Shown: piece after piece, positions 1,079 through 42,169 of the stretch
Layout of the letters: each line of letters begins with the position of its first letter
Position numbering within the stretch: position 1 is the first letter of the stretch
Origin: Polaribacter sp. NJDZ03
GTDB lineage: Bacteria > Bacteroidota > Bacteroidia > Flavobacteriales > Flavobacteriaceae
Assembly: GCF_019263805.1 (NCBI RefSeq)
Contig: NZ_CP079195.1
Span: 3,707,001 to 3,771,000 of the forward strand
DNA length: 64,000 bases
Reading direction: 5' to 3'
Position numbers and translations under genes: made by a program
The notes under the pieces: generated by a model
Database searches by the model: none
The model's input: the letters and a program-made list of their open reading frames with translations, nothing else
What the model was told of the DNA's origin: nothing

Positions 1079-3910
1079 ATGAATCAAATTCTTAAAAAGT
1101 CTTTACTAATTGCAGTTACGTTATTAGTGAGTTTTAACTGTTCATCTAATAAGCCAAATACGATGAAGGATGATAAAGCAATCGTTAGTATAGAAACGGT
1201 ACTAACCATATTAAAAGTGAGAACGGCTATTAATAAAGGAAGTTCTTATATAGTAGCAAACAGTTATGAAGGAACTTTGTTAGGGGTTTCTTTTGATGGA
1301 AAAATTCTTTGGAAAAATGCTTTGTCTGGTTTTATGAATCATGATGTTTGGGTACGAGATTTAGATAATGATGGTAAAGATGAAATTTTAGCAGCAAATG
1401 CTGATGGGAATATTTATTGTTTAAATGCTGAAGGAAAATTATTGTGGAGTTTTAAAAAGAATGATGCACCTATGTTTGCAGTTACTGCAATTAAAAAAGA
1501 CAATAAAATGTATGTTGTAGCTGGTGGCTTTGATAAGAAAATCTATTACTTAGATGCAAAAGGGAAGGAAGTAAAAGAAATTGAAACGTCCACTTTTTCA
1601 ATTGAAAAATCATATAAAAAAGTTGGTCAAAAAAGAGCTCCGAATAATGTGAGCATGACTAATTTTATAAGAGTTGTAGAGAACAAAGACCAGACCGAAA
1701 CTTTAGTAGTTTTGGGTACCAACAATCACATGCAGAATGTAGGAACTTTGTACTTTTTTAATCCTTTAGAAAATCTTCCTTTTAAAAAGAAACCAATTCA
1801 ACAAGATAAATCTGTAAAGGGAAAACTAAGAATTAGACCCATAGGAGATTTAAAAATTGTTGATTATGATAATGATGGTGAAAAGGAAATTTTATTGGGT
1901 GCATCTGCTCATGTAAATGATTTGTTGGTAACATTGTACAGTATTAAAGAAGATACATTTACTTTTCATAAATTAGATAAAATTAGTTTTGGTTATGATA
2001 TTGCACATTCTGAAGTGATTAAACAAAACGGAAAAGATATTTTATTATCAAGAGCCGGAAGTCAAATTCATTTATATGAAAAAGGGAATTATAAAACTTC
2101 TGTAGAAAGATTGGTAAGTACGTATGCGTATAATGATTTATGGAAAGACCCAACAACAAATAATATTATTTTGGCAAGTAGCCAAAGTGGAGGAAGTCAG
2201 ATTCATATTATCAATACAGAAAATAAAAATTGGAAAAAGGAATTTAAAAACTTACATCCTCAAGGTAAAATTGCTTCCATTTTAGAGAACACAAAAATTA
2301 TCAGAAATAATTTAGATCAGTTTCAGAAACCAGATTATCAAGAAAAATCACAACCGGTTTATTTTATGACCGAAAAAGTACCGGATAATTTAGTAGGTTT
2401 AAAAAATGAAATTTCTAAAAATTATGATTCGCCAGTTTTCTTAAACTCATTACACATGAGAGAAGTAGAAAATTGGGATCGTTCTCAAGTCACCAATGAA
2501 AAATATAAAAATTCTAGAGATAGAAGAAAGAAATATACATTAACAAGTGATGAAGCTTTAACGCAAATTACCAATCAGTTTAATGGAGAACCAGGTATTG
2601 CTTATTGGGCAGGTCATGGTAACGATCCGTATATGTTTCATATAAACACTACAAAGAAAGTTGTAGATATGGCTAACGGAAAGAAAACAGTTTTAATTTA
2701 TCCAGAAATGGAAGATCATTCAGATAATTTAAACTTTTTGGTCGATGATTTAGTGTATCCTTTGGCAAAATATGTACAAGGAAAAAATGCCAATATATTT
2801 TTAAGGTCTAAGCATGTTTCTTGGTTGGGTAGTAATTATAACAAACCTTGGTCTCGATTAATGTCTGGCGAGTTTGCAGATGTTTTTGTTCCTTCTATGG
2901 AAGAAACTACAGATAAATCTATGGAACTTAGTTTGGCAGGTAGAACTGGTATGTGGGCAAGTGGAGCAGTCAATTCTTGGGGAACAAGGTCTGTGCCAGA
3001 CAATGCTTCTTTTGATAGATCTAGACAATTAGGATACCAGAGGTTGCCAAATCATTTTTTAAGAATGTTAATTTTTCACACTTCTTACGGAGCACAATAC
3101 ATTAATAACTTTGCGGTAGATCAAGACTATTTAAGTGTTTATTGGGAGTTGATTGCAAAAGGAGCTTTATATGTGCCAAAAAGAAATGAAATTTTAAGTT
3201 TTTCGCCAGTTCATGTAAGTATGAAAGAACCAGATCATCATTATATAGATGAAGGTTCTAATGTAAAATGGAGTATTTTTTATGATGAAGAATTTGAAAA
3301 AAATAATCCGTATGCAATTAGTAGATTAAGTGGTTCTTGGCCAGGAGCAGCAGTTACAGAATGGGATTTTTCTAGATATGCTGCAGGAGTAAAAGAAAGA
3401 AGATTAAACTTTTTAGCGCCTTATGAAAACGGATTGGTATTAATTACACCACCTCAAAAAGGAGTTTTTGCTCAGAAAAATGTAGTAAGAAAATCACTTT
3501 CAGAAAATTTACACCCTTTTTATAAAAACATTTTAAAGGAATATATTACAGACGGACATAATTATTATTCAGCGGATGGAAGTCAAACTTATAAAGCCGA
3601 TGAATATTACAAAATAATAGAAAAAGAGATTAAAGAAAGTGCTAAAAAGCTACCTGTTACTGTTTCTGGTGATGTTGCTTGGGTAGTTGCACAAACCTCT
3701 CCAAAACATTTAAGATTAACCATTTTAGATAACGGGTATATCAACCCGGAAGAGAGCTCTGCAATTGTAAGTTTTAATGATATTAAGATAAAAAAAATTA
3801 CTGATATTTTAAGTGAAGAAGCGTTTAAAGTAGAAAATTCTTCATTAAAAATAAATATCCCTTTAGGTGCTTTTAGATTTATAGATATAGAGTTAGAGAA
3901 GGCGTTTTAA
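1079..3910 (+). CDS. GH150-like (lambda-carrageenase-like) lipoprotein with N-terminal beta-propeller
   Basis: 943 residues, about 106 kDa. The signal peptide ends in a lipobox with Cys21, so it is probably membrane-anchored. The N-terminal half (about 40-340) has PQQ/FG-GAP-type blades, for example DLDNDGKDEIL and NIYCLNAEGKLLW, that predict a beta-propeller. The C-terminal half (about 430-940) carries WAGHGNDP at residues 510-517 and a conserved LAGRTGM segment. Both are shared with the second copy at 16309-18969. Family knowledge: the Pseudoalteromonas carrageenovora lambda-carrageenase CglA that founded GH150 has the same size (about 942 aa) and a predicted N-terminal propeller, and it cleaves beta-1,4 bonds of lambda-carrageenan. 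Assignment rests on architecture and context (GH110 and many sulfatases), not on an alignment I could run. It could instead be a related but inactive binding protein. The gene stands alone, with 263 bases before the next gene. Confidence 0.6.
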   Translation: MNQILKKSLLIAVTLLVSFNCSSNKPNTMKDDKAIVSIETVLTILKVRTAINKGSSYIVANSYEGTLLGVSFDGKILWKNALSGFMNHDVWVRDLDNDGKDEILAANADGNIYCLNAEGKLLWSFKKNDAPMFAVTAIKKDNKMYVVAGGFDKKIYYLDAKGKEVKEIETSTFSIEKSYKKVGQKRAPNNVSMTNFIRVVENKDQTETLVVLGTNNHMQNVGTLYFFNPLENLPFKKKPIQQDKSVKGKLRIRPIGDLKIVDYDNDGEKEILLGASAHVNDLLVTLYSIKEDTFTFHKLDKISFGYDIAHSEVIKQNGKDILLSRAGSQIHLYEKGNYKTSVERLVSTYAYNDLWKDPTTNNIILASSQSGGSQIHIINTENKNWKKEFKNLHPQGKIASILENTKIIRNNLDQFQKPDYQEKSQPVYFMTEKVPDNLVGLKNEISKNYDSPVFLNSLHMREVENWDRSQVTNEKYKNSRDRRKKYTLTSDEALTQITNQFNGEPGIAYWAGHGNDPYMFHINTTKKVVDMANGKKTVLIYPEMEDHSDNLNFLVDDLVYPLAKYVQGKNANIFLRSKHVSWLGSNYNKPWSRLMSGEFADVFVPSMEETTDKSMELSLAGRTGMWASGAVNSWGTRSVPDNASFDRSRQLGYQRLPNHFLRMLIFHTSYGAQYINNFAVDQDYLSVYWELIAKGALYVPKRNEILSFSPVHVSMKEPDHHYIDEGSNVKWSIFYDEEFEKNNPYAISRLSGSWPGAAVTEWDFSRYAAGVKERRLNFLAPYENGLVLITPPQKGVFAQKNVVRKSLSENLHPFYKNILKEYITDGHNYYSADGSQTYKADEYYKIIEKEIKESAKKLPVTVSGDVAWVVAQTSPKHLRLTILDNGYINPEESSAIVSFNDIKIKKITDILSEEAFKVENSSLKINIPLGAFRFIDIELEKAF

Positions 3911-4173
3911 GAATAAATTATTGGTAGATACAAGAAATGTATTCTCAAAAACAAGCGCTGTACGATTGTTTTAGAACTTTACAGTAGTTACAAAGTGTAA
4001 AATTTACAATGAGGTTTTAGATGAAATATTTTGGTTGTTTTTTCTTTTTTAATAGATATTAAAGAGTAAAAATCAATCACTAAAAAAAGATGTTTCCATA
4101 TAAACCTTAGAATTTATTTTGTAAAAATGACTAATACTAAAAGTTCTCTAACTAAAAAAAATGATAATCAATT

Positions 4174-5649
4174 ATGTATTTAAAAAGGACTAATTATATA
4201 AAAATACTATTTGCAATAGTTGTATTGGGGTTTATTGCGTGTAAAGAAAAACAAAAGGAAGTTGCGCAGGTATCAAAAAGTAATCAACCAAATATTATTT
4301 TATTTGTTGCAGATGATCACGGTACCGATGCCATTGGTGCGTATGGAAATCCGGTTATTAAAACTCCAAATTTAGATCAATTAGCATCAGAAGGAGTAAA
4401 GTTTACAAACGCCTATTGTACCAGTGCAAGTTGTGCGGCAAGTAGATCTGTTATTTTATCAGGTAAATTTGGTCACGCAACAGGATCTTATGGTCACGTG
4501 CATGATTATCATCACTTTAGTACGTATGATACAGAAACGTCTTTACCTGTTATTATGGAGAAATCTGGTTACGAAACTGCAAGAATTGGTAAATACCATG
4601 TAGCTCCAGAAAAAGTGTATCACTTTAATCAGGTTTTAGAAGCAGATCCTAGAAATACCGTTGAAATGGCAGATGCTTGTGCCGATGTTTTAAAATCAGA
4701 CAAACCATTTTTCTTATACTTCTGTACAGATGATCCTCATAGAGGACACCCTTTTGAACCAGAACAATGGGATACACCGAATAGTTTTGGAAATAAAAAA
4801 GAAGGTTATAAAGATGTAGAAACTGTAATTTATAATCCAGAAGATGTTTTAGTCCCTTCTTTTTTACCAGACACAAAACAGACTAGAGAAGAAATTGCAC
4901 AATATTACCAGAGTATTTCTAGAATAGACCAAGGTTTTGGTAAGTTGATGAAAATGTTACAAGAAACGGGTAAGGCAGATAACACTATTGTTATTTATAT
5001 TTCTGATAACGGAATGGCTTTTCCAGGTGCTAAAACTACCGTTAATGAACCAGGAATTAAATTGCCTTGTATTATAAAAGATCCAACAAAGGGTACAAAA
5101 GGGACAACAAATAAAGCGATGATTTCTTGGGTAGATTTAACACCAACCATTTTAGATATGGCAAAAATTGAATTTAAAAAAGAGCAATTTCACGGAAAAT
5201 CGTTCAATTCAATTTTAGATAAAGCAGATCCAGAAGGTTGGGACGAAATTTATGCTTCACATACGTTTCATGAAATTACTATGTACTACCCAATGAGAGT
5301 GGTTAGAAGTAAAAATTACAAGTTAATTTGGAATATTGCTTATAGGTTAGAGTATCCTTTTGCATCCGATTTATGGGCGTCTTCTACTTGGCAAAGTATT
5401 TATAGGAACAAAATAGAATATTTTGGACCTAAAAAAGTACAAGATTTTCTATTTAGACCAAAATTTGAATTGTATGATTTATCAAAAGATAAAAATGAGC
5501 TAGATAATCTTGCATATAAAGAAGAATTTAGTGATGTCTTAGAGTCGATGAAAAGTAAGATGAAAAAATTTCAAAAAGAGACCTCAGATCCTTGGATGAT
5601 TATGTGGGGGCATGATGCATCTTTACAAGGTTCTGGAGTTAATTTATAA
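4174..5649 (+). CDS. S1 family sulfatase, CAASR type, lipoprotein
   Basis: 491 residues with a lipobox at Cys23. The alkaline-phosphatase-fold sulfatase core starts at NIILFVADDHG (metal-binding D47-D48). The formylglycine site is C87-A-A-S-R, which fits C-X-(A/P)-X-R, the less common Ala form. A further metal-site segment is ISDNG near residue 278. The layout, with the DDHG opening and short lid regions, resembles the heparan N-sulfatase-like branch (S1_8-like), but the substrate position cannot be read from sequence. It starts a tightly packed run: only 9 bases separate it from the GH110 gene. It should desulfate galactan oligosaccharides in the periplasm or at the membrane, and needs a formylglycine-generating enzyme that is not encoded in this window. 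Confidence 0.9.
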   Translation: MYLKRTNYIKILFAIVVLGFIACKEKQKEVAQVSKSNQPNIILFVADDHGTDAIGAYGNPVIKTPNLDQLASEGVKFTNAYCTSASCAASRSVILSGKFGHATGSYGHVHDYHHFSTYDTETSLPVIMEKSGYETARIGKYHVAPEKVYHFNQVLEADPRNTVEMADACADVLKSDKPFFLYFCTDDPHRGHPFEPEQWDTPNSFGNKKEGYKDVETVIYNPEDVLVPSFLPDTKQTREEIAQYYQSISRIDQGFGKLMKMLQETGKADNTIVIYISDNGMAFPGAKTTVNEPGIKLPCIIKDPTKGTKGTTNKAMISWVDLTPTILDMAKIEFKKEQFHGKSFNSILDKADPEGWDEIYASHTFHEITMYYPMRVVRSKNYKLIWNIAYRLEYPFASDLWASSTWQSIYRNKIEYFGPKKVQDFLFRPKFELYDLSKDKNELDNLAYKEEFSDVLESMKSKMKKFQKETSDPWMIMWGHDASLQGSGVNL

Positions 5650-5658
5650 AAAGCGATT

Positions 5659-7467
5659 ATGATAAACAGTTTATATAAAATAGTAGCAGTATTTATTTTT
5701 TTTGCAACGATCAATAGCAATGCAACTGAAATAATTAATATAAAGCACAGCAAAGGAGATATGACTTTGGTTGTGAGAGAAGCAATTGAAAATGCAAAAA
5801 CCAAAGACATTAAATTGGTGTTTGAAAAAGGAAATTACTTTTTTAAAACAGATTATGCGGTTGGTAAATTCTTGTATGTTACAAATCATGGAAATGGGTT
5901 TAAAAAAATCATTTTTAATTTTGAAAACTTTAATTCCGTTGAAATAGAAGGAAATGATTCTGAATTTATTTTTAGAGGTCAAACATTACCATTTGTATTT
6001 GATGGATTACATAAGATTGATGTAAAAAACATAACTATAGATTGGGATATTCCTTTTTCTTTTCAAGGAGATGTTACTGCAGTAAATGAAAAAGAACAGT
6101 GGTATGAGCTAAAACCATATACAAAAGGGTTTTCATGGAAACTTAGTAAAGGTAGGATTGAATTTCCTGGAATCAATCATTTTAATTTTACGTCTTTAGG
6201 CAGCTCTTTGCCACACAATAAAGAAACAAAAGCAGTAGATTATGGAGCTTGGGATGCAAGCTTAGAATCTAATTTTGTAGAAAAAAGACCGAATGGAATT
6301 TTACGTTTTTATGATAAAAACCTTAAAAAATATCCAAGAGTAGGTTCTGTATTACAATCTAAAGGAGATAAATTAAACAATAGATATGCTCCTGCTTTTT
6401 TAACTAGAAATTCTAAAAACATAGAGTTTAATAATGTGACCATTCATCACGCTTTAGGAATGGGTTTTTTGTTTGAAAGATCTGAAGATATTAAAATTTT
6501 AAATTCAGGAATTTATATTAGAAAAGGCTCAGACAGAGTAATGTCTATTGTTGCAGATGCAACACATTTTGCAAATTGTAAAGGTGATATTTTAATTGAA
6601 GGTTGCCGACTTGAAGGCATGTATGATGATGGAACAAACGTACATGGAACCTATGTTGAAGTAAAAGAAATTCTAAATGATAAAACCGTTAGAATCGCCT
6701 TAATGCACGATCAACAAATGGGATTTGAGTTTGCAGGAATCAATGATGAGGTTTGGTTTATAAAACAACCAAATCCGCAAAGAGCGGAAATAAATACGGT
6801 AACTGCTGTAAAAGTAATTAACGATTATTATACAGATGTAACTTTTAAAAATGAAATTCCTGCAGGTTTAAAAACTGGAGATCTATTAGAAAACAAAACA
6901 TGGAATCCTACTTTTACCATGCGAAAAAATATAATTAGAGATCACAGAGCAAGAAACATCATTATTAAAACTCCAAAGAAAATTATTATAGAAGACAACG
7001 ATTTATCTTCTATGATGTCTTCCATTATGTTAAGGGGAGAAACGTTTTATTGGTTCGAATCTGGTAATGTAGAAGAAGTAATTATCAGAAATAACAGATT
7101 TGTAGATTGTGCAACAGGAGGCTCTGAACACGCAATTTTAAAAGTATCTCCAAGATTAGGGAAATCGTTTGATGATACGATAACGTATGATAGAAATATC
7201 ACTTTCGAAAACAATTTTATTGAAACATTTGACAATAGAATAATTTGGGCAGATAGGGTAGATGGACTAATAATTAAAGGAAATACCATTAAACAAACCA
7301 ACACTTTTAAAGTTCAGTTTCCAGATGCTTATATGTTCGATTTGATACATTGTAAGAATGTAGAAATTTCTAAAAACTCTTATTCAGGGGATAATAAAAA
7401 TATTTTAAAAGCAGATGAAGCTTCTAAAAAAGAGTTGAAATTTAAGAGTAATAAAGGTTTAAAATAA
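5659..7467 (+). CDS. GH110 family exo-alpha-1,3-galactosidase (first copy)
   Basis: 602 residues with a signal peptide of about 22 residues and no lipobox, so probably periplasmic. The sequence is a right-handed parallel beta-helix with repeated N-I-x-I/F-x-N turns throughout. The GH110 signature DATHF...CRLEGMYDDGTNVHG is clear, with Asp300, Asp323 and Asp324. The 23- and 24-residue spacing between these Asp residues matches the catalytic Asp321/Asp344/Asp345 I recall for PdGH110B of Pseudoalteromonas distincta. Family knowledge: GH110 inverting enzymes remove terminal alpha-1,3-linked galactose, and marine members were linked to the alpha-Gal-(1,3)-Gal unit of lambda-carrageenan. It would act on desulfated neo-carrageenan ends, alternating with a beta-galactosidase. 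It sits between a sulfatase and the GH42-like gene in one apparent operon. Confidence 0.85.
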   Translation: MINSLYKIVAVFIFFATINSNATEIINIKHSKGDMTLVVREAIENAKTKDIKLVFEKGNYFFKTDYAVGKFLYVTNHGNGFKKIIFNFENFNSVEIEGNDSEFIFRGQTLPFVFDGLHKIDVKNITIDWDIPFSFQGDVTAVNEKEQWYELKPYTKGFSWKLSKGRIEFPGINHFNFTSLGSSLPHNKETKAVDYGAWDASLESNFVEKRPNGILRFYDKNLKKYPRVGSVLQSKGDKLNNRYAPAFLTRNSKNIEFNNVTIHHALGMGFLFERSEDIKILNSGIYIRKGSDRVMSIVADATHFANCKGDILIEGCRLEGMYDDGTNVHGTYVEVKEILNDKTVRIALMHDQQMGFEFAGINDEVWFIKQPNPQRAEINTVTAVKVINDYYTDVTFKNEIPAGLKTGDLLENKTWNPTFTMRKNIIRDHRARNIIIKTPKKIIIEDNDLSSMMSSIMLRGETFYWFESGNVEEVIIRNNRFVDCATGGSEHAILKVSPRLGKSFDDTITYDRNITFENNFIETFDNRIIWADRVDGLIIKGNTIKQTNTFKVQFPDAYMFDLIHCKNVEISKNSYSGDNKNILKADEASKKELKFKSNKGLK

Positions 7468-7473
7468 TACGTA

Positions 7474-9753
7474 ATGAAACAGGTTCTTTTTTATGTGGTT
7501 TTATTTTTATCGGCAAATATAGTTCAAGCGCAATCTTTAGAAACAGCAGCGAATTCTAAAATTAAAATTTTAGAAAAATTAGTTAAAAAGGCAGAGAAAA
7601 AAAACATTGATGTTTTAAAGGAAAAAACGACTATTAGAACTGCAGAAATATTTTTAAAATATGCTAATTGGGATGATAAAAATGTAAAAGTAAATGAATC
7701 TTTATATAAACTAGTTCCTTCTTTTAAAATGGAAGCTACTAAAATGGCAGAAGATTTACCAAATTTCGAAAGAAAGGAAGTGAATTTAATGTTAGATAAA
7801 GCGATTTTAGAAATTGAATCATTACTAGACAAAAAGACGTTTAGAAAAGTGAGTCCGAATGTAGATTGGACAAAAGTCACCGTAGAAAATGACCAGTTAA
7901 CGTTTAATAATCGACCTGTTTTTTTAGCGGATTATACTTGGAAACCTAAAACTAAAGAACTTACTGAGTTTCATGGAAATCAAGATAGTTTCTTTATAAC
8001 GCCTACTTATGTTTCAAAAGAAGACGGAACTATCAATAAAAAAAGAATGGACTTATTGAACGAAAAAACGGATGGTTCTTTAGGTTTTATTTTTATGAAT
8101 CATAAAGGTGTTCCAAAATGGGCAGAAGAAAAATACGGTCCAAATTTTTCTATGAGAGAAGATACCTATACTGCGTATGATATAGATAATCCTGGGGCAA
8201 GAGAAATTCAAACAAAATTATTAGAAGCTTTTGTACCAAAAATAGCAGGAAAAAAGTTTAGTCAGTTAGGATATATGTTGGTAAATGAACCTCATTTCTA
8301 TACCTATACAGATGCGAAAAAGAAAAAATTACCCTGGGCTTCTGGTGGTGTTTCTCAATTTACAATTGAAAAGTTTAAAGTTTGGTTATCAAAGAAACAT
8401 CAAAATATAGCTGCTTTAAATGCAGTTTGGAATACCAATTTTAAAGATTTTAATGATGTACAAATAGATATTCCTATTGATATCAGTTTAAAAGGATTGC
8501 CAATTTGGTATGATTGGGCTGCTTTTAATATGGATAGAGTAACAGATTGGTATGCCTTCTTAAAAACAGAAATAGCAAAACACGATGCAGATGCAAAAGT
8601 GCATTTAAAAATTATGCCAAATCTTTGGACGAATAACCAAAGAGTTCATGGAATAGATTTAGAAGCATTAACAGATTTAAGCGGAATTATTGGTAACGAT
8701 TCTGGTGCCGATCACACCTATACCTGGGGGAAACCTCATGAATGGCAAAAACATTATGCTTTTGAATGGAGAGAGTTGTGTATGGGATATGATTTTATGA
8801 AATCTGTAAGTCCTAATAAAATAAACTTTAATTCTGAGTTACATTATTTATCAACAGTAAGGTCTCGTAAATTAGATTTAGACCCAAATTATGCAAGAGC
8901 TAGTTTTTGGTTGGCGCATTCTTACGGTATGACTGCAAGCCAGATTTGGTATTGGCCAAGAAACGCAGATGGTTCTATTTCCAATAAAGCAAAAAAGGAT
9001 AAAGGGTATGCTGGTTCTAACAATCAGCAACCAAGAGTAACTAATGAAGTTGCCATGACGTTAATAGATTTGAATGCTAATTCAGAAGAAATAATGGCAA
9101 TTCAAAGAGACAGAAAACCAGTCCGTTTGTTTTATTCTAAAACGTCTGCTATTAATAAAAAAGCACATATGGATGATCTTTATCGTTTGTATGAAGGTTT
9201 AAATTTTGAAGGAATTCCTTTAGGATTTATAACTGAAAATATCATTAAAAAACAGAATAATAAAAATTGGAATCTTGTTGCTGTGTATAATACTCCTTTT
9301 GTTACCAAAGATGAATTAAACGCCTTACAATCATATTTGAATAATGGAGGAACTATAATTATTGATGACATTAGTTTAGTGAAAAACGAATACGGAAACG
9401 AATTAATTGCTTTAACGAAAGGGAAGGGAACTATTATTAGATTGAATTCGGTTGCTAAAATTAGAAACGAAGTTTTATCACTCTTAAAAGAAAAAAATCT
9501 ACTTTCTGATATTTCTATTGAAGAAACAAATACAGCAGATAGAAAAGGATGTATTTGGAGAGTTGTAAAAAACAATGCTGATAATAATGTATTGTCTATT
9601 GTAAATGTTGGTAATACAGACGCTTCACTAAAAATTTCATTAAAAGGTAATGAAAATATCATTTGTAAAGATTTAATAAAAGGAATAGCAGTTTCATCAA
9701 CACCTATTTTAAAACCAAATGAGGTATATTTTGTTGAGGTTACTTTAAAATAA
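7474..9753 (+). CDS. Clan GH-A beta-galactosidase-like enzyme (GH42/GH50/GH167-like)
   Basis: 759 residues with a signal peptide of about 20 residues. A helical region (about 22-125) precedes a TIM-barrel. The barrel shows an acid/base Asn-Glu pair in VNEPHF (Glu272) and a probable nucleophile in NSELHYL (Glu455). The segment FKVWLSKKHQNIAALNAVW is typical of GH42 and of related GH50 and GH167 enzymes. A flavodoxin-like region (about 545-675, with NNGGTIIIDD) and a C-terminal beta-domain follow, as in GH42 trimerization-type domains. Function: probably exo-hydrolysis of beta-linked galactose or release of disaccharides from galactan oligomers. Which of the three families it belongs to cannot be settled by eye. 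It is 6 bases from the GH110 gene, consistent with alternate alpha/beta trimming. Confidence 0.7.
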   Translation: MKQVLFYVVLFLSANIVQAQSLETAANSKIKILEKLVKKAEKKNIDVLKEKTTIRTAEIFLKYANWDDKNVKVNESLYKLVPSFKMEATKMAEDLPNFERKEVNLMLDKAILEIESLLDKKTFRKVSPNVDWTKVTVENDQLTFNNRPVFLADYTWKPKTKELTEFHGNQDSFFITPTYVSKEDGTINKKRMDLLNEKTDGSLGFIFMNHKGVPKWAEEKYGPNFSMREDTYTAYDIDNPGAREIQTKLLEAFVPKIAGKKFSQLGYMLVNEPHFYTYTDAKKKKLPWASGGVSQFTIEKFKVWLSKKHQNIAALNAVWNTNFKDFNDVQIDIPIDISLKGLPIWYDWAAFNMDRVTDWYAFLKTEIAKHDADAKVHLKIMPNLWTNNQRVHGIDLEALTDLSGIIGNDSGADHTYTWGKPHEWQKHYAFEWRELCMGYDFMKSVSPNKINFNSELHYLSTVRSRKLDLDPNYARASFWLAHSYGMTASQIWYWPRNADGSISNKAKKDKGYAGSNNQQPRVTNEVAMTLIDLNANSEEIMAIQRDRKPVRLFYSKTSAINKKAHMDDLYRLYEGLNFEGIPLGFITENIIKKQNNKNWNLVAVYNTPFVTKDELNALQSYLNNGGTIIIDDISLVKNEYGNELIALTKGKGTIIRLNSVAKIRNEVLSLLKEKNLLSDISIEETNTADRKGCIWRVVKNNADNNVLSIVNVGNTDASLKISLKGNENIICKDLIKGIAVSSTPILKPNEVYFVEVTLK

Positions 9754-9767
9754 TAAGGATACGAACT

Positions 9768-9889: not shown

Positions 9890-10777
9890 ATGAAATTATC
9901 TAAAATCTTATCAGTAGTATTAATAACCGTATTTTTTTCTTGTAAAACAGTCTTAATTTCTCAAGAGAAGAAAGAAGTCCAAGTTGTTTTATTAGCAGGA
10001 CAATCTAATATGGCAGGAGCAGGTAATTATGATAATTTGGATGCATCCATCAAAGTAAGAATTGAAAAAGTTGCAAATAGAGTTTTTATAAGTCAGTCTA
10101 ATACAGACCAAACACCATTGTCTTGGTATAAAAATAAACCAAGTGAAAAATACGATTTTACAAAACGTTTTGGTCCGGAATTAATGATTGGTTTAACCTT
10201 GGCAGAAAAATATCCTAACAAAGAATTTTTGTTGATAAAACACGCTAAAGGAGGTACTGCTTTATATGGAGCTTGGAACCCAGATTGGACTTTAGAAAAA
10301 GCGAAAGAAATAGAAAAAGGGGCAAAAAAACAAAGCTGGAATTTAGTTGAACAACACATCAATTTAATCAATGAGAACTTAGCTATTTTAAAGAAAAAAG
10401 GAAAGTCTTATAAAATTATTGGGTTTGCCTGGATGCAAGGAGAAAATGATGCTACTTTAGAAAAAGCAGCAAATAGTTACGCAGATAATTTAGAAAAATT
10501 AATAAAAAAGTACAGAACGACTTTTAATGTAGAAGAAATGCCGTTTGTTTTTGGTCAGATTAACTCTAGATACGGAATTAAAAAGGGCGCAAAAACGGTT
10601 AGAGAACAGATGGAAAAAGTACCATCAGCAGTAAAAAATGTGCGTTTAGTTAAAACAAGTACAGATACAAGTTGGTCGGATTTTCCTAAACATACAGACA
10701 ATGTACACTACAATGCGGAGGGACAAAAAAGGTTAGGTGTACAATTGGCACAAGAATTAATAGATTTTCTAAAATAA
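9890..10777 (+). CDS. SASA/CE6-like carbohydrate esterase, lipoprotein (first of tandem pair)
   Basis: 295 residues with a lipobox at Cys18. It is an SGNH-hydrolase-like fold of the sialate O-acetylesterase/CE6 type. Visible motifs are the nucleophile block GQSNMAG (Ser39), an RFGPELMIG block, WMQGEND in the middle and the C-terminal DNVHYN (Asp270, His273). Family knowledge: these proteins remove acetyl groups from xylan or sialic acid. In a galactan locus the substrate could be an acetylated or otherwise acylated galactose, or an unrelated ester. The neighbour 4 bases downstream is a paralogue, so the pair arose by tandem duplication. The location is between the two hairpins upstream and a sulfatase downstream. 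Confidence 0.8.
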   Translation: MKLSKILSVVLITVFFSCKTVLISQEKKEVQVVLLAGQSNMAGAGNYDNLDASIKVRIEKVANRVFISQSNTDQTPLSWYKNKPSEKYDFTKRFGPELMIGLTLAEKYPNKEFLLIKHAKGGTALYGAWNPDWTLEKAKEIEKGAKKQSWNLVEQHINLINENLAILKKKGKSYKIIGFAWMQGENDATLEKAANSYADNLEKLIKKYRTTFNVEEMPFVFGQINSRYGIKKGAKTVREQMEKVPSAVKNVRLVKTSTDTSWSDFPKHTDNVHYNAEGQKRLGVQLAQELIDFLK

Positions 10778-10781: not shown

Positions 10782-11636
10782 ATGAATAAGTTACTACTGA
10801 GTTTTTTGACTTGCCTTATGATTTCTTCGATAACTTTTTCTCAAGAAGAAATTCATGTTGTTTTGTTGGCAGGACAATCTAATATGGCAGGTCGTGGTGT
10901 TTCTAAAGAATTAGATGCTGCTCTTATAAAAAGAATTCAAGATGTTTCTGATAGAGTTTTAATCTCAACATCAGATATAGAAAAAAAGAAGCCAGAACCG
11001 TTATCCTCTTTTAAGAAGAGTTTTGGTCCAGAATTAATGGTGGGGTTAACTTTAGCAGAAGCAAATCCAGAACAACATTATTTATTGATTAAAAAAGCTG
11101 TTGGAGGAACTTCTTTGTACGGTGCTTGGAGCACAGAATGGACAAAAGAAAAAGCAATGATTGCAGAACGAGGAGAAGAAAGACAAGCATTGCAATTATA
11201 TGCTGCTCATATTAAAAATATTCATCAGAATTTAGAAGAATTAAAAGCAGAAAATAAAACCTTTAAAATCTTAGGTTTACTTTGGATGCAAGGAGAGAGT
11301 GATACTAATAAGGCCATTACAGCAACGTCTTATCAAAAGAATCTTCAGAATTTGATAAATGGGTATAGAAGTGAATTAAAAATAAAAGATTTACCAATTG
11401 TAATAGGACAAGTAAATGTGCTGCCAAGAAAATATAAAATTGGCCCAACACAAGTTAGAAATGCAATGTTATCTGTAGCTAATTCTGACAAGAATATAGA
11501 AATTATAGAAACATCCACCAATGAAAATTGGTTAGATTTCCCGAAACATTCAGACAATTTACATTACAATACCATAGGGCAAAAAAGATTAGGCATTGCC
11601 TTTGCTAAAGAATTAATAAAACTTTCAAATAATTAA
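10782..11636 (+). CDS. SASA/CE6-like carbohydrate esterase (second of tandem pair)
   Basis: 284 residues with a cleavable signal peptide (about 20 residues, ending TFSQ) and no lipobox, unlike its neighbour, so it is probably soluble in the periplasm. The same motif set is present: GQSNMAG (Ser33), SFGPELMVG, WMQGESD and DNLHYN (Asp258, His261). The two copies look roughly half identical and are colinear over their whole length, so the duplication is not recent. The different membrane anchoring suggests they act in different places or on different chain lengths. It is separated by 4 bases from the next sulfatase, so it is very likely co-transcribed. Confidence 0.8.
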   Translation: MNKLLLSFLTCLMISSITFSQEEIHVVLLAGQSNMAGRGVSKELDAALIKRIQDVSDRVLISTSDIEKKKPEPLSSFKKSFGPELMVGLTLAEANPEQHYLLIKKAVGGTSLYGAWSTEWTKEKAMIAERGEERQALQLYAAHIKNIHQNLEELKAENKTFKILGLLWMQGESDTNKAITATSYQKNLQNLINGYRSELKIKDLPIVIGQVNVLPRKYKIGPTQVRNAMLSVANSDKNIEIIETSTNENWLDFPKHSDNLHYNTIGQKRLGIAFAKELIKLSNN

Positions 11637-11640: not shown

Positions 11641-13197
11641 ATGAAAAAACAGTATTCTTATTTCGCAGTTAGAATTTTATGTGTTTTAATGTTAGCTACT
11701 ACTTTTGTAGCTTGTAATCAAAAAGAAAAAGCAACAAAACAAACAAAAGAAATAGTAAAAAAGCCTAATATTTTATGGGTTGTAGCAGAAGATTTATCCC
11801 CATTTATGGGTGCTTATGGAGATTCTATAAATAAAGGGCACACACCAGTAATCGATAAATTAGCATCAGAAGGCATTTTATTTAAAAGAGCCTATGCAAC
11901 TGCACCAGTTTGTTCTGCAGCAAGATCTGCATTAATAACAGGTGTGTATCAAACCACAACAGGTACACATAATCATAGATCTAGTAGGTTTACAGATGGT
12001 GAAATTGTACCAGAAGAATTAAGAATACACTTGCCAGAAGGAATGAAAACGATTCCGGAATTGATGAAAGAAGCCGGTTATTTTACGTTTAATAGTGGTA
12101 AAGACGATTATAATTTTGATTACGATAGAAGAGCCTTGTATGATGTTGGCACCAAAGAAGATTATAAAGCAGGTATGAATGGTTGGCAAGGAAATCATGC
12201 TATAGACTTTATGACAGTAAAAGAGTATGTGTGGAATGCTAGAAAAGATAAAAATCAACCTTGGTTTGGACAAGTTCAAATTATGGGAGGTAAAAAAGAT
12301 GCAAAATATGTAAGAGAAGGAGAAAAATTGGCTACTAATGATGTGCCACTACCACCTTATTTTCCAAATATAAAATCGCAAAGAGAAGCTTGGACAACAC
12401 ATTACAATGCAAACAGAGGTTCTGATGTTACTTTAGAAAAAGTGATAAAGCAATTAGAAGCAGATGGCGAGTTAGAGAATACCATCATCTTTTTCTTTTC
12501 AGACCATGGTAGTCCAACTTCGTTAAGACATAAACAATTTTGTTATGAAGGTGGATTGTTGGTGCCTTTAATTATTAAAGGTGATAATCCTGTTTTAAAA
12601 GCCGGAACTGTAAGAAACGATTTGGTTTCTTTGCTAGATGTTTCTGCAACTACATTAGCACTAGGTAATGCTAAAATGCCTTCTTATTTAGTGGGACAAG
12701 ATTTATTTTCGAATGATTATCAAGAAAAAGAATATGTAATTGGAGCAAGAGATAGATGTGATTATACAATTGATAAAATAAGAACCGTAGTTTCTGAAGA
12801 GTACAGATATATTAAAAATTATTTTCCTGAAAGACCAATGATGCAAGCTGGTTATAGAGATAATAAAAAGATTGTAACAGATTTTAGAAAATTGCATGAG
12901 GAAGGTAAATTAACACCATATCAAGAACAACATTGGTTTGGGGTTCGTCCTGTAGAAGAATTGTATGATTTGAAAAAAGATCCGAATCAAATGAATAATT
13001 TAGCATTGAATACTGAGTATTCAGAAGTTTTATTAAAGCACAGAAATGTTTTAGAAAACTGGATTAAAGAAACAGGAGATAAAGGTCAGTTTCCTGAAGA
13101 TGCTAAGCAACTAGAAGCAACGTACAATATGTGGAAAGACAGACCTCGCTTTAAAAATGCCAAAATAAACCCAGAATACGATCAGTTTAAAAAGTAG
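11641..13197 (+). CDS. S1 family sulfatase, CSAAR type, lipoprotein
   Basis: 518 residues with a lipobox at Cys25. The core begins at KPNILWVVAEDLS, where the first metal pair is Glu50-Asp51 rather than the usual Asp-Asp. The formylglycine motif is C91-S-A-A-R (Ala form), and FFSDHG supplies another metal-site block. A THNHRS segment after the active site is shared with the sulfatase at 48405-49922, and both have AED at the metal site, so the two form a subgroup. By general look they fall near the heparan N-sulfatase-like branch. The sulfate position is unknown. It ends a packed run (GH110, GH42-like, two esterases), with 87 bases before the next gene. Confidence 0.9.
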   Translation: MKKQYSYFAVRILCVLMLATTFVACNQKEKATKQTKEIVKKPNILWVVAEDLSPFMGAYGDSINKGHTPVIDKLASEGILFKRAYATAPVCSAARSALITGVYQTTTGTHNHRSSRFTDGEIVPEELRIHLPEGMKTIPELMKEAGYFTFNSGKDDYNFDYDRRALYDVGTKEDYKAGMNGWQGNHAIDFMTVKEYVWNARKDKNQPWFGQVQIMGGKKDAKYVREGEKLATNDVPLPPYFPNIKSQREAWTTHYNANRGSDVTLEKVIKQLEADGELENTIIFFFSDHGSPTSLRHKQFCYEGGLLVPLIIKGDNPVLKAGTVRNDLVSLLDVSATTLALGNAKMPSYLVGQDLFSNDYQEKEYVIGARDRCDYTIDKIRTVVSEEYRYIKNYFPERPMMQAGYRDNKKIVTDFRKLHEEGKLTPYQEQHWFGVRPVEELYDLKKDPNQMNNLALNTEYSEVLLKHRNVLENWIKETGDKGQFPEDAKQLEATYNMWKDRPRFKNAKINPEYDQFKK

Positions 13198-20686: not shown

Positions 20687-23940
<3,254 letters not shown>

Positions 23941-23941
<1 letters not shown>

Positions 23942-25913: not shown

Positions 25914-25930
25914 TTCTAAAATTGAATTTT

Positions 25931-29265: not shown

Positions 29266-29362
29266 ATGAAATTAAACTTTTTATTAAAAAACAAAATATT
29301 AGCATACAGCCTACTAAGCTTATTTGCTATTTTATGCTGTAGTTTTGATGCGTATGCACAAA
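29226..29362 (+). repeat. Direct repeat spanning 5' leader and signal peptide of susC-like genes, copy 1
   Basis: 137 bases that recur at 33911-34047 at a constant offset of 4685 bases with only about ten differences. It covers 40 bases of leader and the first ~32 codons. Similarity collapses right after the signal-peptide cleavage region. Confidence 0.9.
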
Positions 29363-33813: not shown

Positions 33814-33910
33814 TTAGATGATCTTTTTTTTTATATGTTATTTTAAATTAGGTTGAAGCTGTTTCCTAAACTCTTCTCAATAATTATGATAAATAACAAT
33901 AGTAAAAAGA

Positions 33911-34047
33911 CAAAAAACTAATTTGAATAAAAACGAATAAAAATCAACCCATGAAATTAAACTTTTTATTAAAAAACAAAATATTAGCATATAGCCTACT
34001 AAGCTTATTTGCTATATTGTTCTGTAGTTTTGATGCCAGTGCACAAA
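33911..34047 (+). repeat. Direct repeat spanning 5' leader and signal peptide of susC-like genes, copy 2
   Basis: Second copy of the 137-base repeat at 29226-29362. The leader block (CTAATTTGAATAAAAACG) and the first ~32 codons are nearly unchanged, while the mature proteins are clearly different. Confidence 0.9.
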
Positions 34048-37064: not shown

Positions 37065-37075
37065 AAACACACAAA

Positions 37076-38830: not shown

Positions 38831-38836
38831 TCTAAA

Positions 38837-40510
38837 ATGAAAAAAATGAAAAAAATAGGAATTATATTAATGTTGATACTGTCAGCATTTGGATGTAGTG
38901 AAAATGAATATGATGCACCTTATGGAGATTTCTCTAGTTTTACTTGGATAGCAACACAAAATACTACTACAGGAGATTATGTAGTGGCACTTAATCAGTT
39001 TATAGGATTATATGATGTTTCTGCGAATGCGGTAAGCCATAGCTGGAGTATACCAGAGGGTACTAGTTCTTTGTCTAAAGAGTTTTCTTCGGATAATTCA
39101 ATCTATTCAGATTTTATAGAAGCTACTGGGCCAACAAGTTTAGAAGATCAGCAAATAAATGTGCTGTTTAATACACCAGGAATTAAAGAAATTGCACTTA
39201 AAAATGTTTTTAAAGATTCTGTAACTGAGTCTGTAAAACAAGCAGATGGTACTTGGTTGGTTGATAAAATATTTACGGTTAATGTTTATGATGATTTAAA
39301 ACCAGTATTTCAGGTGCTTAAAGGTACAGAAGTTGTATTAAGTATTGGTGAAGAAGATATGCCAAGTATTGCTGATGTTGCTTCATGGAAAACAGTAAGC
39401 ATAGAAGCCGGTGAACAACTTACGTATGTAGATATGACTACTTCAGGAGAACCAGACGCTAGAACATGGACATTTAAAGGAGGAGATAAAGATAAAAGCA
39501 GTGCAGATTCTGTAGATGTTTTATATAATAGTTTAGGAGATTTTGTTGCTGGAGACATTACTTCTAGCAGAAAAGAACCAAAACCAAAAGGAGAAGTAAT
39601 AAAATTAATTCCTTTAAAAATTAAAGTAATTCCATCTACAAAACCTTTTGTTCTTAATGGAGGTTTAAAAGAAGATGCATCAGAAGTTATTTCTTTTAAA
39701 CTTACAGGAGAAATAGGTGTTTTAGCTACATCAGAAAAAGATAATTTTACTGTAAATGTAGCAAATACAACAGCAGGTTTCAATCAAAATATTGCGGTGC
39801 AATCAGTTGCAATTAATAGTGAAGATGCAACGCAGATAGATATAACATTAGCAGCACCAATTTATAACAGTGATGTGGTTACTGTTGCTTATACTTCGGG
39901 CGATATACAATCTGTAGATTCTAGAGTTTTAGAAAGCTTCGAGAACAAAAAAGTTGTTATGTATTTTGAAGGAGCTATGAATATACCAGGTTATACGGGC
40001 TATGAACAAGAATGGGGTGGTTCTGGTAATCAATTTAAAAAAGCAAATACAGAAGGGTATTTTGCACAACATAACAAAAATAATGAAGGTGGCCCATTAT
40101 ATTATTGGAGAGATGATGCTATGTCTTATCAAGGTAATAGTTCTATGAAGTTCGAAACTACAGCTAGCGGAATTCCTGCAATTGCAAGATTACAAGGAGC
40201 TGGTTTTACAACTTTAAGCCCTGTAACTGCAGGTACATATATTCCTTCTGTTTGGGTTTATATCGAAAATTCTACTGTTATGAGTTCTATTCAGTTTTCT
40301 TTTAATGCAGATTCTGATGCAACTTTTAATTTTGATATTTCAGCAACAGAAAAAGGGAAATGGGTAAAACTTACGTTACCAGAAATAACTTTAGGAGGTA
40401 TTAATTCTGGTAGATTCGATCTTAATATCGAAAATACAGGTCAAGATGATGCTATCGTTCAAAAACTATGGTTAGATAATTTTGATTTATTAATTATCGA
40501 ACCTAGATAA
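38837..40510 (+). CDS. SusE/F-type surface glycan-binding lipoprotein
   Basis: 557 residues with a lipobox at Cys20 (SAFGC). I see no enzyme motif. It is composed of beta-rich Ig-like segments (about 30-370). A C-terminal jelly-roll-like domain follows (about 385-557), opening with KKVVMYFEGAMN and ending in WLDNFDLLII, a carbohydrate-binding-module look. Position directly behind a susCD pair, 7 bases from susD, is the classic place for a surface glycan-binding protein. It probably tethers the sulfated galactan at the cell surface. A terminator follows immediately. Confidence 0.75.
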   Translation: MKKMKKIGIILMLILSAFGCSENEYDAPYGDFSSFTWIATQNTTTGDYVVALNQFIGLYDVSANAVSHSWSIPEGTSSLSKEFSSDNSIYSDFIEATGPTSLEDQQINVLFNTPGIKEIALKNVFKDSVTESVKQADGTWLVDKIFTVNVYDDLKPVFQVLKGTEVVLSIGEEDMPSIADVASWKTVSIEAGEQLTYVDMTTSGEPDARTWTFKGGDKDKSSADSVDVLYNSLGDFVAGDITSSRKEPKPKGEVIKLIPLKIKVIPSTKPFVLNGGLKEDASEVISFKLTGEIGVLATSEKDNFTVNVANTTAGFNQNIAVQSVAINSEDATQIDITLAAPIYNSDVVTVAYTSGDIQSVDSRVLESFENKKVVMYFEGAMNIPGYTGYEQEWGGSGNQFKKANTEGYFAQHNKNNEGGPLYYWRDDAMSYQGNSSMKFETTASGIPAIARLQGAGFTTLSPVTAGTYIPSVWVYIENSTVMSSIQFSFNADSDATFNFDISATEKGKWVKLTLPEITLGGINSGRFDLNIENTGQDDAIVQKLWLDNFDLLIIEPR

Positions 40511-40524
40511 TTTAAAATAGAATG

Positions 40525-40561
40525 ATATTCCCATTTCAATTTGAGATGGGAGTATTTTTTT
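40525..40561 (+). terminator. Rho-independent terminator/attenuator after the transport genes
   Basis: ATATTCCCATTTCAA pairs with TTGAGATGGGAGTAT (two G-T pairs) with a one-base centre, so the loop must open by a few pairs. A T-run follows at 54-61. It lies between the glycan-binding protein and the next sulfatase. Confidence 0.8.
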
Positions 40562-40609
40562 CCAATGAATAACTTTTATGTACAAAGGATAATATATAAA
40601 AACAAGATA

Positions 40610-42169
40610 ATGAGAATCGTTAAATTAAATTTTTTATTAGTTTTTACTTTCGTTTTTGCAATTGGGTGTAAAAATCAACCAGAGAAAAAAGAAGTAAAAA
40701 AGACTGAACAGAAACCAAATATTGTAGTTATCTATTTAGATGATTTAGGCTATGGAGATATTAGTGCCTACGGAGCTACAGAACTACAAACGCCAAATAT
40801 AGATGCATTAGCGTCTGGCGGAATTAAATTTACAAATGGGTATGCTTCTTCGGCAACGTGTACACCAAGTAGGTATGCTTTATTAACAGGTGTGTATCCT
40901 TGGCGAAATAAAGATGCTAAAATTTTACCAGGAACAGCGCCTTTGTTAATTACTACAGAGCAACAAACCTTACCAAAAATGTTGAAGAAACAAGGGTACC
41001 AAACAGCAATTGTTGGTAAATGGCACTTAGGTTTAGGAACCGGAATTGTAAATTGGAACGAAAGAGTTTCTCCAGGTCCAAATGAAGTTGGTTTTGAAAG
41101 TTCATATATTATGGCTGCTACGCAGGATAGAGTTCCTACCGTATACATAAAAGATGGAAATGTTGTTGGTTTAGATAAAAATGATCCTATTGAAATAAGT
41201 TATAAAGAGAATTTTGAAGGAGAACCAACGGCAATTTCTAATCCAGAAATGACAACGATGAAATGGCATCATGGTCATAACAATAGTATTGTAAACGGAA
41301 TTCCAAGAATAGGGTTTATGAAAGGTGGTGATGCTGCAAAATGGACAGATACAGACATGGCAGATCATTTTTTAACAAAGGCACAGAATTATGTTAAAAC
41401 ACATAAAGACAAACCTTTCTTTTTATATTATGCAATGCAACAGCCACATGTGCCAAGAACGCCACATCCAAGGTTTGTAGGTAAATCTGGAATGGGACCA
41501 AGAGGAGATGTAATTCTAGAAGCAGATTGGGTGATTGGAGAATTTATGAATACTTTAAAAGAAGAAGGAATTTTAGAAAATACATTAGTTGTTTTTTCTA
41601 GTGATAATGGCCCTGTTTTAAATGATGGTTATTATGATGATGCCGTAGAAAAATTAGGGAAACACGATCCTAAAGGAGGATTTAGAGGTGGTAAATACAG
41701 TATTTTTGAAGCAGGTACAAGAGTTCCTTTTATTACGTATTGGAAAGGGAAAATACAACCTGCAGTTTCAGATGCTATTGTTTGTCAGATGGATTTATTA
41801 GCTTCTCTTGCAAACTTAACAGGTACTGCAGAAATGACTACAGATAGTAAAGATATATTAAACACCTTGTTAGGTAAAAGTGATACAGGAAGAGATAACT
41901 TAGTAATTGAAGCTACAGGAAAAACAGCTTTAAGACGTGGAGATTGGGTATATATACCAGATTATAAAGGAAAAAACTTTAGAGAAAAAGTAGGTATCGA
42001 AGTTGGTAACTTTCCTTATGAGCAGCTTTATAATGTAAAAGAAGACAAAGGACAACAAAATAATTTAGCTGAATCTAATCCAGAAAAATTAGCAGAAATG
42101 AAAGCTGTTTTTGTGAAGTTAAGAGGTGTCGATTTTACAAATGGAGTTAAAGAAGTACAATTTAGATAA
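40610..42169 (+). CDS. S1 family sulfatase, S1_15-like, lipoprotein
   Basis: 519 residues from the ATG at 40610, chosen because the signal peptide and lipobox (Cys20, FAIGC) start there. The longer frame from a TTG at 40541 begins inside the terminator stem. Metal pair D44-D45 in YLDDLGYGDISAYGA, formylglycine motif C84-T-P-S-R-Y followed by LLTGVYPWR, VGKWHLGLG and FSSDNGP. SRYALLTGxYPWR is typical of the S1_15 branch, which includes galactose/GalNAc 6-sulfatases. A 6-O-sulfatase would suit the 2,6-disulfated galactose of lambda-carrageenan (inference). It is the last gene of the transport block, followed by a strong terminator. Confidence 0.9.
   Translation: MRIVKLNFLLVFTFVFAIGCKNQPEKKEVKKTEQKPNIVVIYLDDLGYGDISAYGATELQTPNIDALASGGIKFTNGYASSATCTPSRYALLTGVYPWRNKDAKILPGTAPLLITTEQQTLPKMLKKQGYQTAIVGKWHLGLGTGIVNWNERVSPGPNEVGFESSYIMAATQDRVPTVYIKDGNVVGLDKNDPIEISYKENFEGEPTAISNPEMTTMKWHHGHNNSIVNGIPRIGFMKGGDAAKWTDTDMADHFLTKAQNYVKTHKDKPFFLYYAMQQPHVPRTPHPRFVGKSGMGPRGDVILEADWVIGEFMNTLKEEGILENTLVVFSSDNGPVLNDGYYDDAVEKLGKHDPKGGFRGGKYSIFEAGTRVPFITYWKGKIQPAVSDAIVCQMDLLASLANLTGTAEMTTDSKDILNTLLGKSDTGRDNLVIEATGKTALRRGDWVYIPDYKGKNFREKVGIEVGNFPYEQLYNVKEDKGQQNNLAESNPEKLAEMKAVFVKLRGVDFTNGVKEVQFR

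Follow-up and report, generated by a model that had tools for sequence, protein, structure and literature searches.

Which polysaccharide does a sulfatase-rich polysaccharide utilization locus (PUL) of Polaribacter sp. NJDZ03 serve? We analyzed a stretch of 64,000 nucleotides, referred to here as the window, which corresponds to bases 3,707,001 to 3,771,000 of the single-contig genome (4,078,668 bases); proteins are named by the window position at which they begin (Table 1). A sequence-only reading of positions 1079 to 42169 had proposed a lambda-carrageenan PUL, arguing in part from the lack of anhydrogalactosidases. From the gene content, homology, active-site residues and conservation beside GH150 that we observed, the assignment of this interval and of genes beyond it to such a PUL is well supported. 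Very probably, the PUL extends from a hybrid two-component system (HTCS) regulator to window base ∼52,300, has lambda-carrageenan as its substrate and abuts a separate kappa/iota-type carrageenan region. This substrate is indicated by GH150 and by the types of GH110, not by the absence of anhydrogalactosidases.

In a Pfam profile search of 32 window proteins, both proteins that had been called GH150-like (1079-3910 and 16309-18969) significantly matched all three lambda-carrageenase domains, for which the cut-offs are ∼27 bits, and the possibility raised beforehand that neither would belong to GH150 fell away. Membership extends over the full length, with 48 to 74% identity to the window protein in a 17-row alignment. 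GH150A shares 48% identity with CglA of Pseudoalteromonas carrageenovora over 949 aligned columns, GH150B shares 49.7% with the GH150B of that species, and the two are the only matches to the GH150 middle domain in the genome. In the PDB, propellers alone were matched, over the N-terminal part. The HTCS starts at genome position 3703691, upstream of the window; by codon phase it reads on into the window in frame, across base 3, and first meets a stop codon at 818. That the open reading frame at 87-818 is a frameshifted or separate response regulator was considered and rejected: although its response-regulator match starts only at profile position 21, it is the in-frame tail of the HTCS.

The full lambda-carrageenan cascade was solved in 2025 in Pseudoalteromonas distincta U2A by Vickers et al. 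(PMC12549532). The sequence-only reading knew of no fully worked-out Bacteroidetes pathway; this holds in the literature searched, where we found none dissected enzyme by enzyme for Bacteroidota, but the pathway of P. distincta has been published. We used P. carrageenovora plasmid proteins as stand-ins for the U2A enzymes, with residue numbers taken from PMC12549532. The numbers fit the stand-ins for GH110A, GH110B, S1_8B, S1_15A and S1_15B but not those for S1_8A (formylglycine 82 versus C80) and S1_8C (C68 versus C93), and the latter two assignments therefore rest on PDB names and lengths.

Both predicted GH110 proteins (5659-7467 and 24093-25913) match two GLAA-B domains each and have the catalytic Asp of the family (D323 and D327, respectively). 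Protein 5659 carries R459 and S497 at the positions of R460 and T498, which open the 6-sulfate pocket of GH110A (PMC12549532), whereas 24093 has E463 at the GH110B position E480; Arg versus Glu here distinguishes the 6-sulfo from the non-sulfo type in the U2A cascade, and the two thus form a predicted pair for sulfated and desulfated terminal alpha-galactose. The abundance of sulfatases that had been claimed was evident from Pfam, which detected 12 across the window, 7 of them in 1079-42169. Both 2-O (S1_8) and 6-O (S1_15) types are represented, by 11641 (S1_8B-like), 48405 (nearest to S1_8A by bit score, 35%) and 40541 (S1_15-like), and 11641 keeps both substrate contacts, with Y405 and K409 at the Y389/K393 positions. 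For sulfatase maturation, the genome has five FGE-type matches. The TIGR03942 radical-SAM maturase model found no match in the genome; it responded in 12 of 14 control genomes, in 2 of them above the cut-off. Beta-galactosidases of family GH2 are present at 20702 and 49990. Of the two proposed earlier, the GH2 at 20702-23941 stood, and the "GH42-like" protein at 7474-9753 proved to be a GH167: its PF02449 match is weak (30 bits, cut-off 21), and GH167 fits far better. Lambda-carrageenan would require endo cleavage, 2- and 6-sulfatases, GH110 and a beta-galactosidase, and the GH150 membership and residue-level match to the Pseudoalteromonas cascade support this proposal well.

We further surveyed 71 GH150 loci for relatives of window genes within 10 kb (tblastn, E at most 1e-20 and query coverage of 40% or more, keeping for each place the best of 40 queries). 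The loci are what was left of the top 80 when 138 confirmed stretches were ordered by similarity to the window GH150. They are mostly from Bacteroidota, with others from Planctomycetes, Pontiella and other Kiritimatiellales, Lentisphaerae, and Gamma- and Alphaproteobacteria; for some of them the phylum is presumed from the organism name. Relatives of sulfatase 4174 and of GH110A were each found in 29 loci, of the HTCS tail in 24, of GH82 in 18, of the first SASA esterase and of sulfatase 19025 in 17 each, of GH167 and of sulfatase 11641 in 14 each, and of sulfatases 14729 and 13285 in 12 and 9, respectively; relatives of 46817 and 48405 sit in GH150 loci L079 and L037. Among matched genes, between which unmatched ones may intervene, a relative of 4174 was followed by GH110A 21 times, GH150 was followed by a relative of 4174 18 times, and a relative of the HTCS tail preceded GH150 15 times. 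HTCS, sulfatase 4174, GH110A, GH167 and SASA occurred all together in 7 of the 71 loci. HTCS-GH150-sulfatase-GH110A looks like a conserved operon core. SusC/SusD genes, expected in a Bacteroidota-type lambda PUL, are present as two pairs; the unit of SusC2, SusD2 and the SWM protein recurs beside GH150 in Flammeovirga, and SusC2/SusD2 (57%/46-47%) in Maribacter GH150 loci L025 and L032. Close protein relatives are from Polaribacter, with 97% identity for GH167 in P. undariae/sejongensis and 75% for GH150 in P. staleyi.

We propose the following scheme; its activities, the sequence in which they act, and its regulation and transport are all predicted. The HTCS would sense an oligosaccharide. 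GH150A and GH150B would cut the beta-1,4 bonds of lambda-carrageenan to even-numbered neo-oligosaccharides, which would be imported by SusCD pair 2 with the SWM protein. In the periplasm, S1_8B-like 11641 would take the 2-sulfate off the terminal alpha-Gal2,6S, after which either GH110A-like 5659 would release Gal6S, or S1_15-like 40541 would remove the 6-sulfate and GH110B-like 24093 would then release galactose. At the new beta-Gal2S end, the 2-sulfate would be removed by an S1_8-type sulfatase (4174 and/or 48405) and galactose released by GH2, and the cycle would repeat. Additions to the known scheme would be GH167, possibly taking off disaccharides, the SGNH esterases, the sulfatases of S1_30 and S1_16 type and a secreted GH82, enzymes that would be of use where the natural polymer has variant or hybrid stretches. 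Protein P0150 of Flavivirga abyssicola is a natural fusion of a SASA-type esterase domain and GH167, a Rosetta-stone hint that the esterase may act on the GH167 substrate; a literature search for acetylated lambda-carrageenan turned up no carrageenan paper by title among the 12 listed of 465.

For tallies by genome, 58 of the loci were first selected, 8 were dropped (L036, L044, L046, L053, L054, L058, L061 and L075) and L037 was missing, which left 49 GH150 genomes; absence refers to E-value limits of 1e-40 for GH167, 1e-20 for GH82 and 0.001 for GH129, and of 1e-30 and 1e-100 in the GH16/GH127 tallies, and draft genomes may be incomplete. Several findings weigh against a pure lambda-carrageenan PUL of the U2A kind. 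GH82, GH167 and S1_16-type genes lie in the same run, and a part of it could thus serve iota-, kappa- or hybrid chains. No GH82 match was found in 10 of the 49 genomes and no GH167 in 6 of them, so that the pathway does without the former and the latter is not essential to it. The GH110B-like 24093 is only 31-35% identical to either GH110 type and has A501 where GH110B has the partner D518. The S1_15-like 40541, which may act on oligo- or monosaccharides, has no counterpart of the gating Trp of the U2A enzymes; it is the single S1_15 here, versus two in U2A, and an S1_8C ortholog was not found. Finally, the lambda trait is accessory in the genus, since none of its 35 other genomes among the 58 searched besides the strain's own has a GH150.

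The absence of GH127 and GH129 anhydrogalactosidases was confirmed for the window proteins but turned out to be a weaker argument than claimed. None of the 32 window proteins had a GH127 or GH129 Pfam match, and GH129 had no match in the whole genome. No kappa-type GH16 carrageenase, GH127 or GH129 occurs in 1079-42169; such genes are first seen at 52573 and past the window. The argument is weakened because GH167 and GH82 lie within the interval and GH127s in the adjoining region: two GH127s, 57% identical to each other, are located beyond the end of the window, at distances of 14 and 23 kb (L006 13971-15962 and L007 3374-5446). Anhydrogalactosidases just outside the window, induced by agar or kappa-carrageenan only, had been named as evidence against lambda-carrageenan, and of this we found the half that concerns presence. 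Relatives of the first GH127 (81-89% identical) occur in 16 of the 49 genomes.

All these genes might belong to one pan-carrageenan locus of more than 85 kb, with GH82 and GH167 for iota-, kappa- and hybrid chains, GH150 and GH110 for lambda chains, and shared control, a possibility that we take seriously but lean against. The kappa/iota-type genes do follow unbroken, from GH16 52573 and sulfatase 54082 to the GH127s, 7474 is the only GH167 match and 25922 the only full-length GH82 match in the genome (the other GH82 matches cover the sorting tail), and P. carrageenovora has both systems on one plasmid. However, the kappa/iota side has a separate AraC regulator at 55657 and a further SusC from 62188, and the distributions of GH167 and GH82 relatives speak for linkage to GH150.

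Characterized GH167s release anhydrogalactose-containing neocarrabiose. Protein 7474 shows full-length homology to the family and has both catalytic Glu residues (E272 and E455), which are kept in 52 of 52 rows. We located GH167, GH150, kappa-type GH16 and GH127 in the 49 genomes, taking genes within 25 kb as linked. Among GH167s at least 60% identical to that of the window (n = 21), 19 lie near GH150 and only 1 near kappa GH16 (near both), with 2 near neither, which argues against a pan-carrageenan locus. At 45-60% identity (n = 38), 12 are near GH150, 6 near GH16 (2 near both) and 22 near neither; the corresponding numbers are 5, 10 and 19 at 36-44% (n = 34) and 3, 3 and 8 below 36% (n = 14). 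In a 52-row tree, 10 GH16-linked GH167s (39-43%) and the P. carrageenovora enzyme form a clade of 11 with support of 0.98. The close GH167s, 21 rows made up of 20 copies and that of the window, group together, but we do not claim strict monophyly, because the basal support is 0.096. At 41 positions, residues are near-fixed differently (at least 95% versus 90%) between the 21 close, mostly GH150-linked GH167s and the kappa clade; GH150-linked enzymes have Lys/Arg versus neutral or acidic residues at several of them (for example K443, K556 and R228), and the kappa clade does at a few others. Protein 7474 thus has the family and both catalytic Glu in common with the kappa/iota carrageenan PUL (CarPUL) described in parts of Hettle et al. 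2019 (PMC6923384), whereas the kappa/iota-linked clade is set off from the close GH150-linked copies by these differences. In two Cellulophaga genomes (G007 and G009), a close GH167 lies near GH150 and kappa GH16 gave no match; each has one GH127 match at 65-66% and a GH129 match below the cut-off.

Protein 25922 belongs to GH82 by both sequence and beta-helix fold. GH82 has been described as active solely on iota-carrageenan (PMC12549532, discussion). The catalytic Gln, Glu and His of CgiA_Ce are given as Q233, E257 and H292 in a part of PMC3669377; mapped via the Alteromonas fortis alignment, those of 25922 are Q215, E238 and H278, kept in 26 of 26 rows. Residues ∼284-336 of the A. fortis GH82 are unaligned to the family profile. 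The A. fortis residue Asp247, a candidate catalytic residue according to a part of PMC4919138, is replaced by Gly240 in 25922; the P. carrageenovora GH82 also has Gly, so this is no bar to membership. Unlike the A. fortis iota-carrageenase (1h80, 1ktw and 3lmw), 25922 thus combines this Gly with a type IX secretion system (T9SS) tail and a GH150 neighbor.

We found at least 150 GH82 matches in the 49 genomes (E up to ∼1e-20; in many genomes the first 29 candidates were scored). Among the 150 listed, 69 lie within 25 kb of GH150 and 10 within 25 kb of kappa GH16 (4 near both), 4 are near GH127 alone and 71 near none of the three. Position 247 is Gly in 60, His in 6, Ser in 1 and Asp in 2 of the 69 GH150-near rows versus Asp in 5 and His in 1 of the 6 rows near kappa GH16 and not GH150 (Fisher p 7e-6). 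We nevertheless rejected Gly by itself as a mark of lambda activity, as the P. carrageenovora GH82, taken as an iota-carrageenase, has it, the rows share descent and kappa-linked rows number only six; it is at most a clade marker. None of the GH150-linked rows falls in the classical A. fortis clade (9 rows, support 1.0). Pontiella sulfatireligans (G035, L052/L059), with nine GH150 middle-domain and 18 GH82-like matches in one genome, is by this gene content an extreme carrageenan specialist.

GH82 and GH167 may instead be hitch-hikers from the neighboring kappa/iota region with their iota/kappa activity unchanged, which seems to us conceivable if somewhat doubtful. The P. carrageenovora GH82, taken as an active iota-carrageenase by Gobet 2018 (in a part of PMC6262041) and matched by us to L010:18772 by gene order, has the Gly and lies in a broad clade with GH150-linked rows. 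In the midpoint-rooted GH167 tree, moreover, four GH16-linked GH167s (L281-L284, 45-53%) are on the GH150 side and the GH150-linked L286 is on the kappa side. The plasmid record annotates the P. carrageenovora GH82 (L010 18772-20406) only as "hypothetical protein". On the other hand, the same linkage recurs in independent genomes, and in Lacinutrix mariniflava and L. algicola (G028 and G029; loci L042 and L043) and in Robiginitomaculum (G047; L076) GH82 lies 6-20 kb from GH150 while GH167, kappa GH16, GH127 and GH129 gave no match at the limits applied. The three are apparent lambda-only users and would be good models of a minimal pathway.

Nu-carrageenan has the same 2,6-disulfated alpha-galactose as lambda-carrageenan, but a 4-sulfated beta-galactose. 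We consider it improbable that the true target is not pure lambda-carrageenan but a precursor galactan (nu- or mu-carrageenan) or a hybrid one (lambda/theta): a nu-type structure would explain the S1_16-type sulfatase and GH82, which stand in the run together with GH167, but the U2A GH150s that were tested are inactive on kappa and iota (PMC12549532), and the S1_8B-type 2-O-sulfatase is a direct fit for lambda, as are both GH110 types.

Lambda-carrageenan being the preferred substrate, the locus most likely represents a system of known kind in a Bacteroidota version, with a toolkit like the Pseudoalteromonas cascade plus extra enzymes that set it apart. It resembles the lambda-CarPULs of U2A and P. 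carrageenovora 9T (PMC12549532; part of PMC6262041) in its GH150A and GH150B orthologs, GH110A/GH110B pocket residues, GH2, S1_8 and S1_15. In contrast to the P. carrageenovora plasmid, whose genes include those for a TonB receptor and a LacI regulator, it has SusCD import and HTCS control; compared with both Pseudoalteromonas loci, its run contains GH167, GH82, SASA esterases, S1_30 and S1_16 as extras, its GH2 types are others, and it has a single S1_15 and no ortholog of S1_8C. The GH82 (25922-27553), the two SGNH/SASA esterases and the PUL genes past 42169 were absent from the sequence-only reading. A predicted lambda PUL of Flavobacteriaceae bacterium S85, described by gene content in a part of Gobet 2018 (PMC6262041), likewise has two GH150s next to GH2 and GH110; it bears the same strain name as Ochrovirga pacifica S85 (L016), where the 10-kb flanks hold a second GH150, an SGSH-like sulfatase and one match to a P. 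carrageenovora query (probably GH2). The plasmid locus of Flammeovirga kamogawensis (NZ_CP076130.1, L004) has GH150A, SusC2/SusD2/SWM, GH110 and a relative of sulfatase 13285 in common with Polaribacter, but a comparison that covered 10 of its 25 annotated proteins showed no GH150B-, GH167- or GH82-like protein; its L004:30963 is only 14% identical to the window GH150B. Growth on or degradation of lambda-carrageenan is known for gut Bacteroides and Reichenbachiella, and one tested Bacteroides enzyme yielded kappa/iota oligosaccharides from commercial lambda-carrageenan, as reported in parts of PMC13168452 and PMC10752948; GH150-based lambda use has been predicted for fish-gut Alistipes (part of PMC11748540). 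The system was thus foreseen by gene content in 2018 and solved biochemically in another class in 2025.

Within the window, the start of the kappa/iota-type region comprises 52573..61932. Its GH16 56708 and sulfatase 58966 have a stretch of ∼430 residues in common (63% identical), which suggests a copied carrier or binding module that both share. The SusC at 62188-64000 runs past the window end, is followed by a SusD at L006 1406 and probably belongs to the kappa/iota side.

Table 1. Features of the window, in window coordinates
Feature	Position	Strand	Evidence
C-terminal end of HTCS	1..818	+	Response_reg and HTH_18; upstream part Reg_prop/Y_Y_Y/HisKA/HATPase
GH150A, predicted endo-lambda-carrageenase (CglA type)	1079..3910	+	Pfam CGLA_M 645, propeller 411, C-terminal 119 bits
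S1 sulfatase, SGSH-like, probably S1_8 (putative 2-O-sulfatase)	4174..5649	+	Best PDB 4mhx, 289 bits; lipoprotein signal, lipobox
GH110A-like predicted exo-6-sulfo-alpha-1,3-galactosidase	5659..7467	+	53.5% to P. carrageenovora GH110A; D323 catalytic
GH167, exo-beta-galactosidase family releasing non-reducing-end disaccharides; GH150-linked group	7474..9753	+	9whd 816 bits, 6ptm 747 bits
SGNH/SASA carbohydrate esterase 1	9890..10777	+	PF03629, 122 bits; relative in 17/71 GH150 loci
SGNH/SASA carbohydrate esterase 2	10782..11636	+	47% to esterase 1
S1_8B-like sulfatase (predicted 2-O-desulfation of terminal alpha-Gal2,6S)	11641..13197	+	43.5% to S1_8B stand-in
S1 sulfatase, putative	13285..14709	+	61% to one beside GH150 in Flammeovirga; nearest PDB 6hhm, 179 bits
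S1 sulfatase	14729..16270	+	Nearest solved 6ust/9fo1, tied (GalNAc-6S / S1_16 types)
GH150B, divergent lambda-carrageenase (predicted)	16309..18969	+	Same three Pfam domains, 214, 78, 71 bits
S1_30 sulfatase	19025..20536	+	9ihk "Sulfatase_S1_30A" 482 bits, next best 148
GH2 beta-galactosidase, LacZ architecture	20702..23941	+	GH2 N, middle, TIM-barrel, LacZ_4, Bgal_small_N domains
GH110B-like predicted alpha-1,3-galactosidase for desulfated terminal galactose	24093..25913	+	E463 at GH110B E480; D327 catalytic
GH82-family beta-helix endo-carrageenase (predicted), T9SS sorting tail	25922..27553	+	
S1_16-like S1 sulfatase	27562..28956	+	9fo1 264 bits, next 224
SusC/SusD pair 1	29266-32334, 32347-33813	+	62%/63% to pair in Flavobacterium algicola GH150 locus (L021)
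SusC/SusD pair 2, probable lambda-oligosaccharide importer	33951-37064, 37076-38830	+	43%/38% to Flammeovirga kamogawensis pair beside GH150
SWM-repeat lipoprotein-like, probable surface glycan-binding protein	38837..40510	+	29% relative at same place in Flammeovirga
S1_15-like sulfatase (predicted galactose-6-sulfate 6-O-sulfatase)	40541..42169	+	46%/45.5% to S1_15A/S1_15B stand-ins
Rest of PUL past 42169: sulfatases 42526, 46817, 48405 and outer-membrane protein 44017	42526..49922	+	
Second GH2 beta-galactosidase	49990..52341	+	Pfam; outside 1079-42169; relative in 5/71 GH150 loci
GH16	52573	+	66% to kappa/iota-side P. carrageenovora plasmid protein
Sulfatase	54082	+	59% to kappa/iota-side P. 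carrageenovora plasmid protein
AraC regulator	55657	+	
T9SS-tailed GH16	56708-58954	+	Calx-beta and sorting-tail matches
T9SS-tailed sulfatase	58966-61932	+	Calx-beta and sorting-tail matches

Few known polysaccharides are as highly sulfated as lambda-carrageenan, which comes from red seaweeds, and one gammaproteobacterium provides the only pathway for it that we found resolved enzyme by enzyme. The Polaribacter locus provides a Bacteroidota counterpart, with HTCS control and SusCD import, that can be tested residue by residue. What is new is that particular lineages of GH82 and GH167 are paired with GH150 again and again: both families, so far assigned to anhydrogalactose carrageenans, are repeatedly near GH150, GH82 even where no anhydrogalactose machinery was found. 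These GH150-linked lineages may have adapted to lambda-type chains. In its fullest form, which we consider rather unlikely, this would mean that a GH82 branch is now an endo-enzyme for lambda-type (non-anhydro) carrageenan, working alongside GH150 in several phyla, and that users lacking GH150, such as Zobellia galactanivorans, could have it as their lambda-carrageenase. A GH167 lineage would likewise have exchanged anhydro-neocarrabiose for lambda disaccharides. According to a part of PMC6262041, Z. galactanivorans grows on lambda-carrageenan without GH150, and an unknown lambda-carrageenase family is suspected. PUL 23 of Z. galactanivorans has GH110 and S1_8; Zobellia uliginosa has a relative of 25922 (P0294, 34%), and we suggest that lambda growth of Zobellia may be linked to a GH82 of this kind. 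If the specificity of GH82 and GH167 has changed, CAZy-based prediction (GH82 as iota, GH167 as kappa/beta) would be wrong for many marine genomes, and the growth of Zobellia on lambda-carrageenan without GH150 would become a directly testable puzzle.

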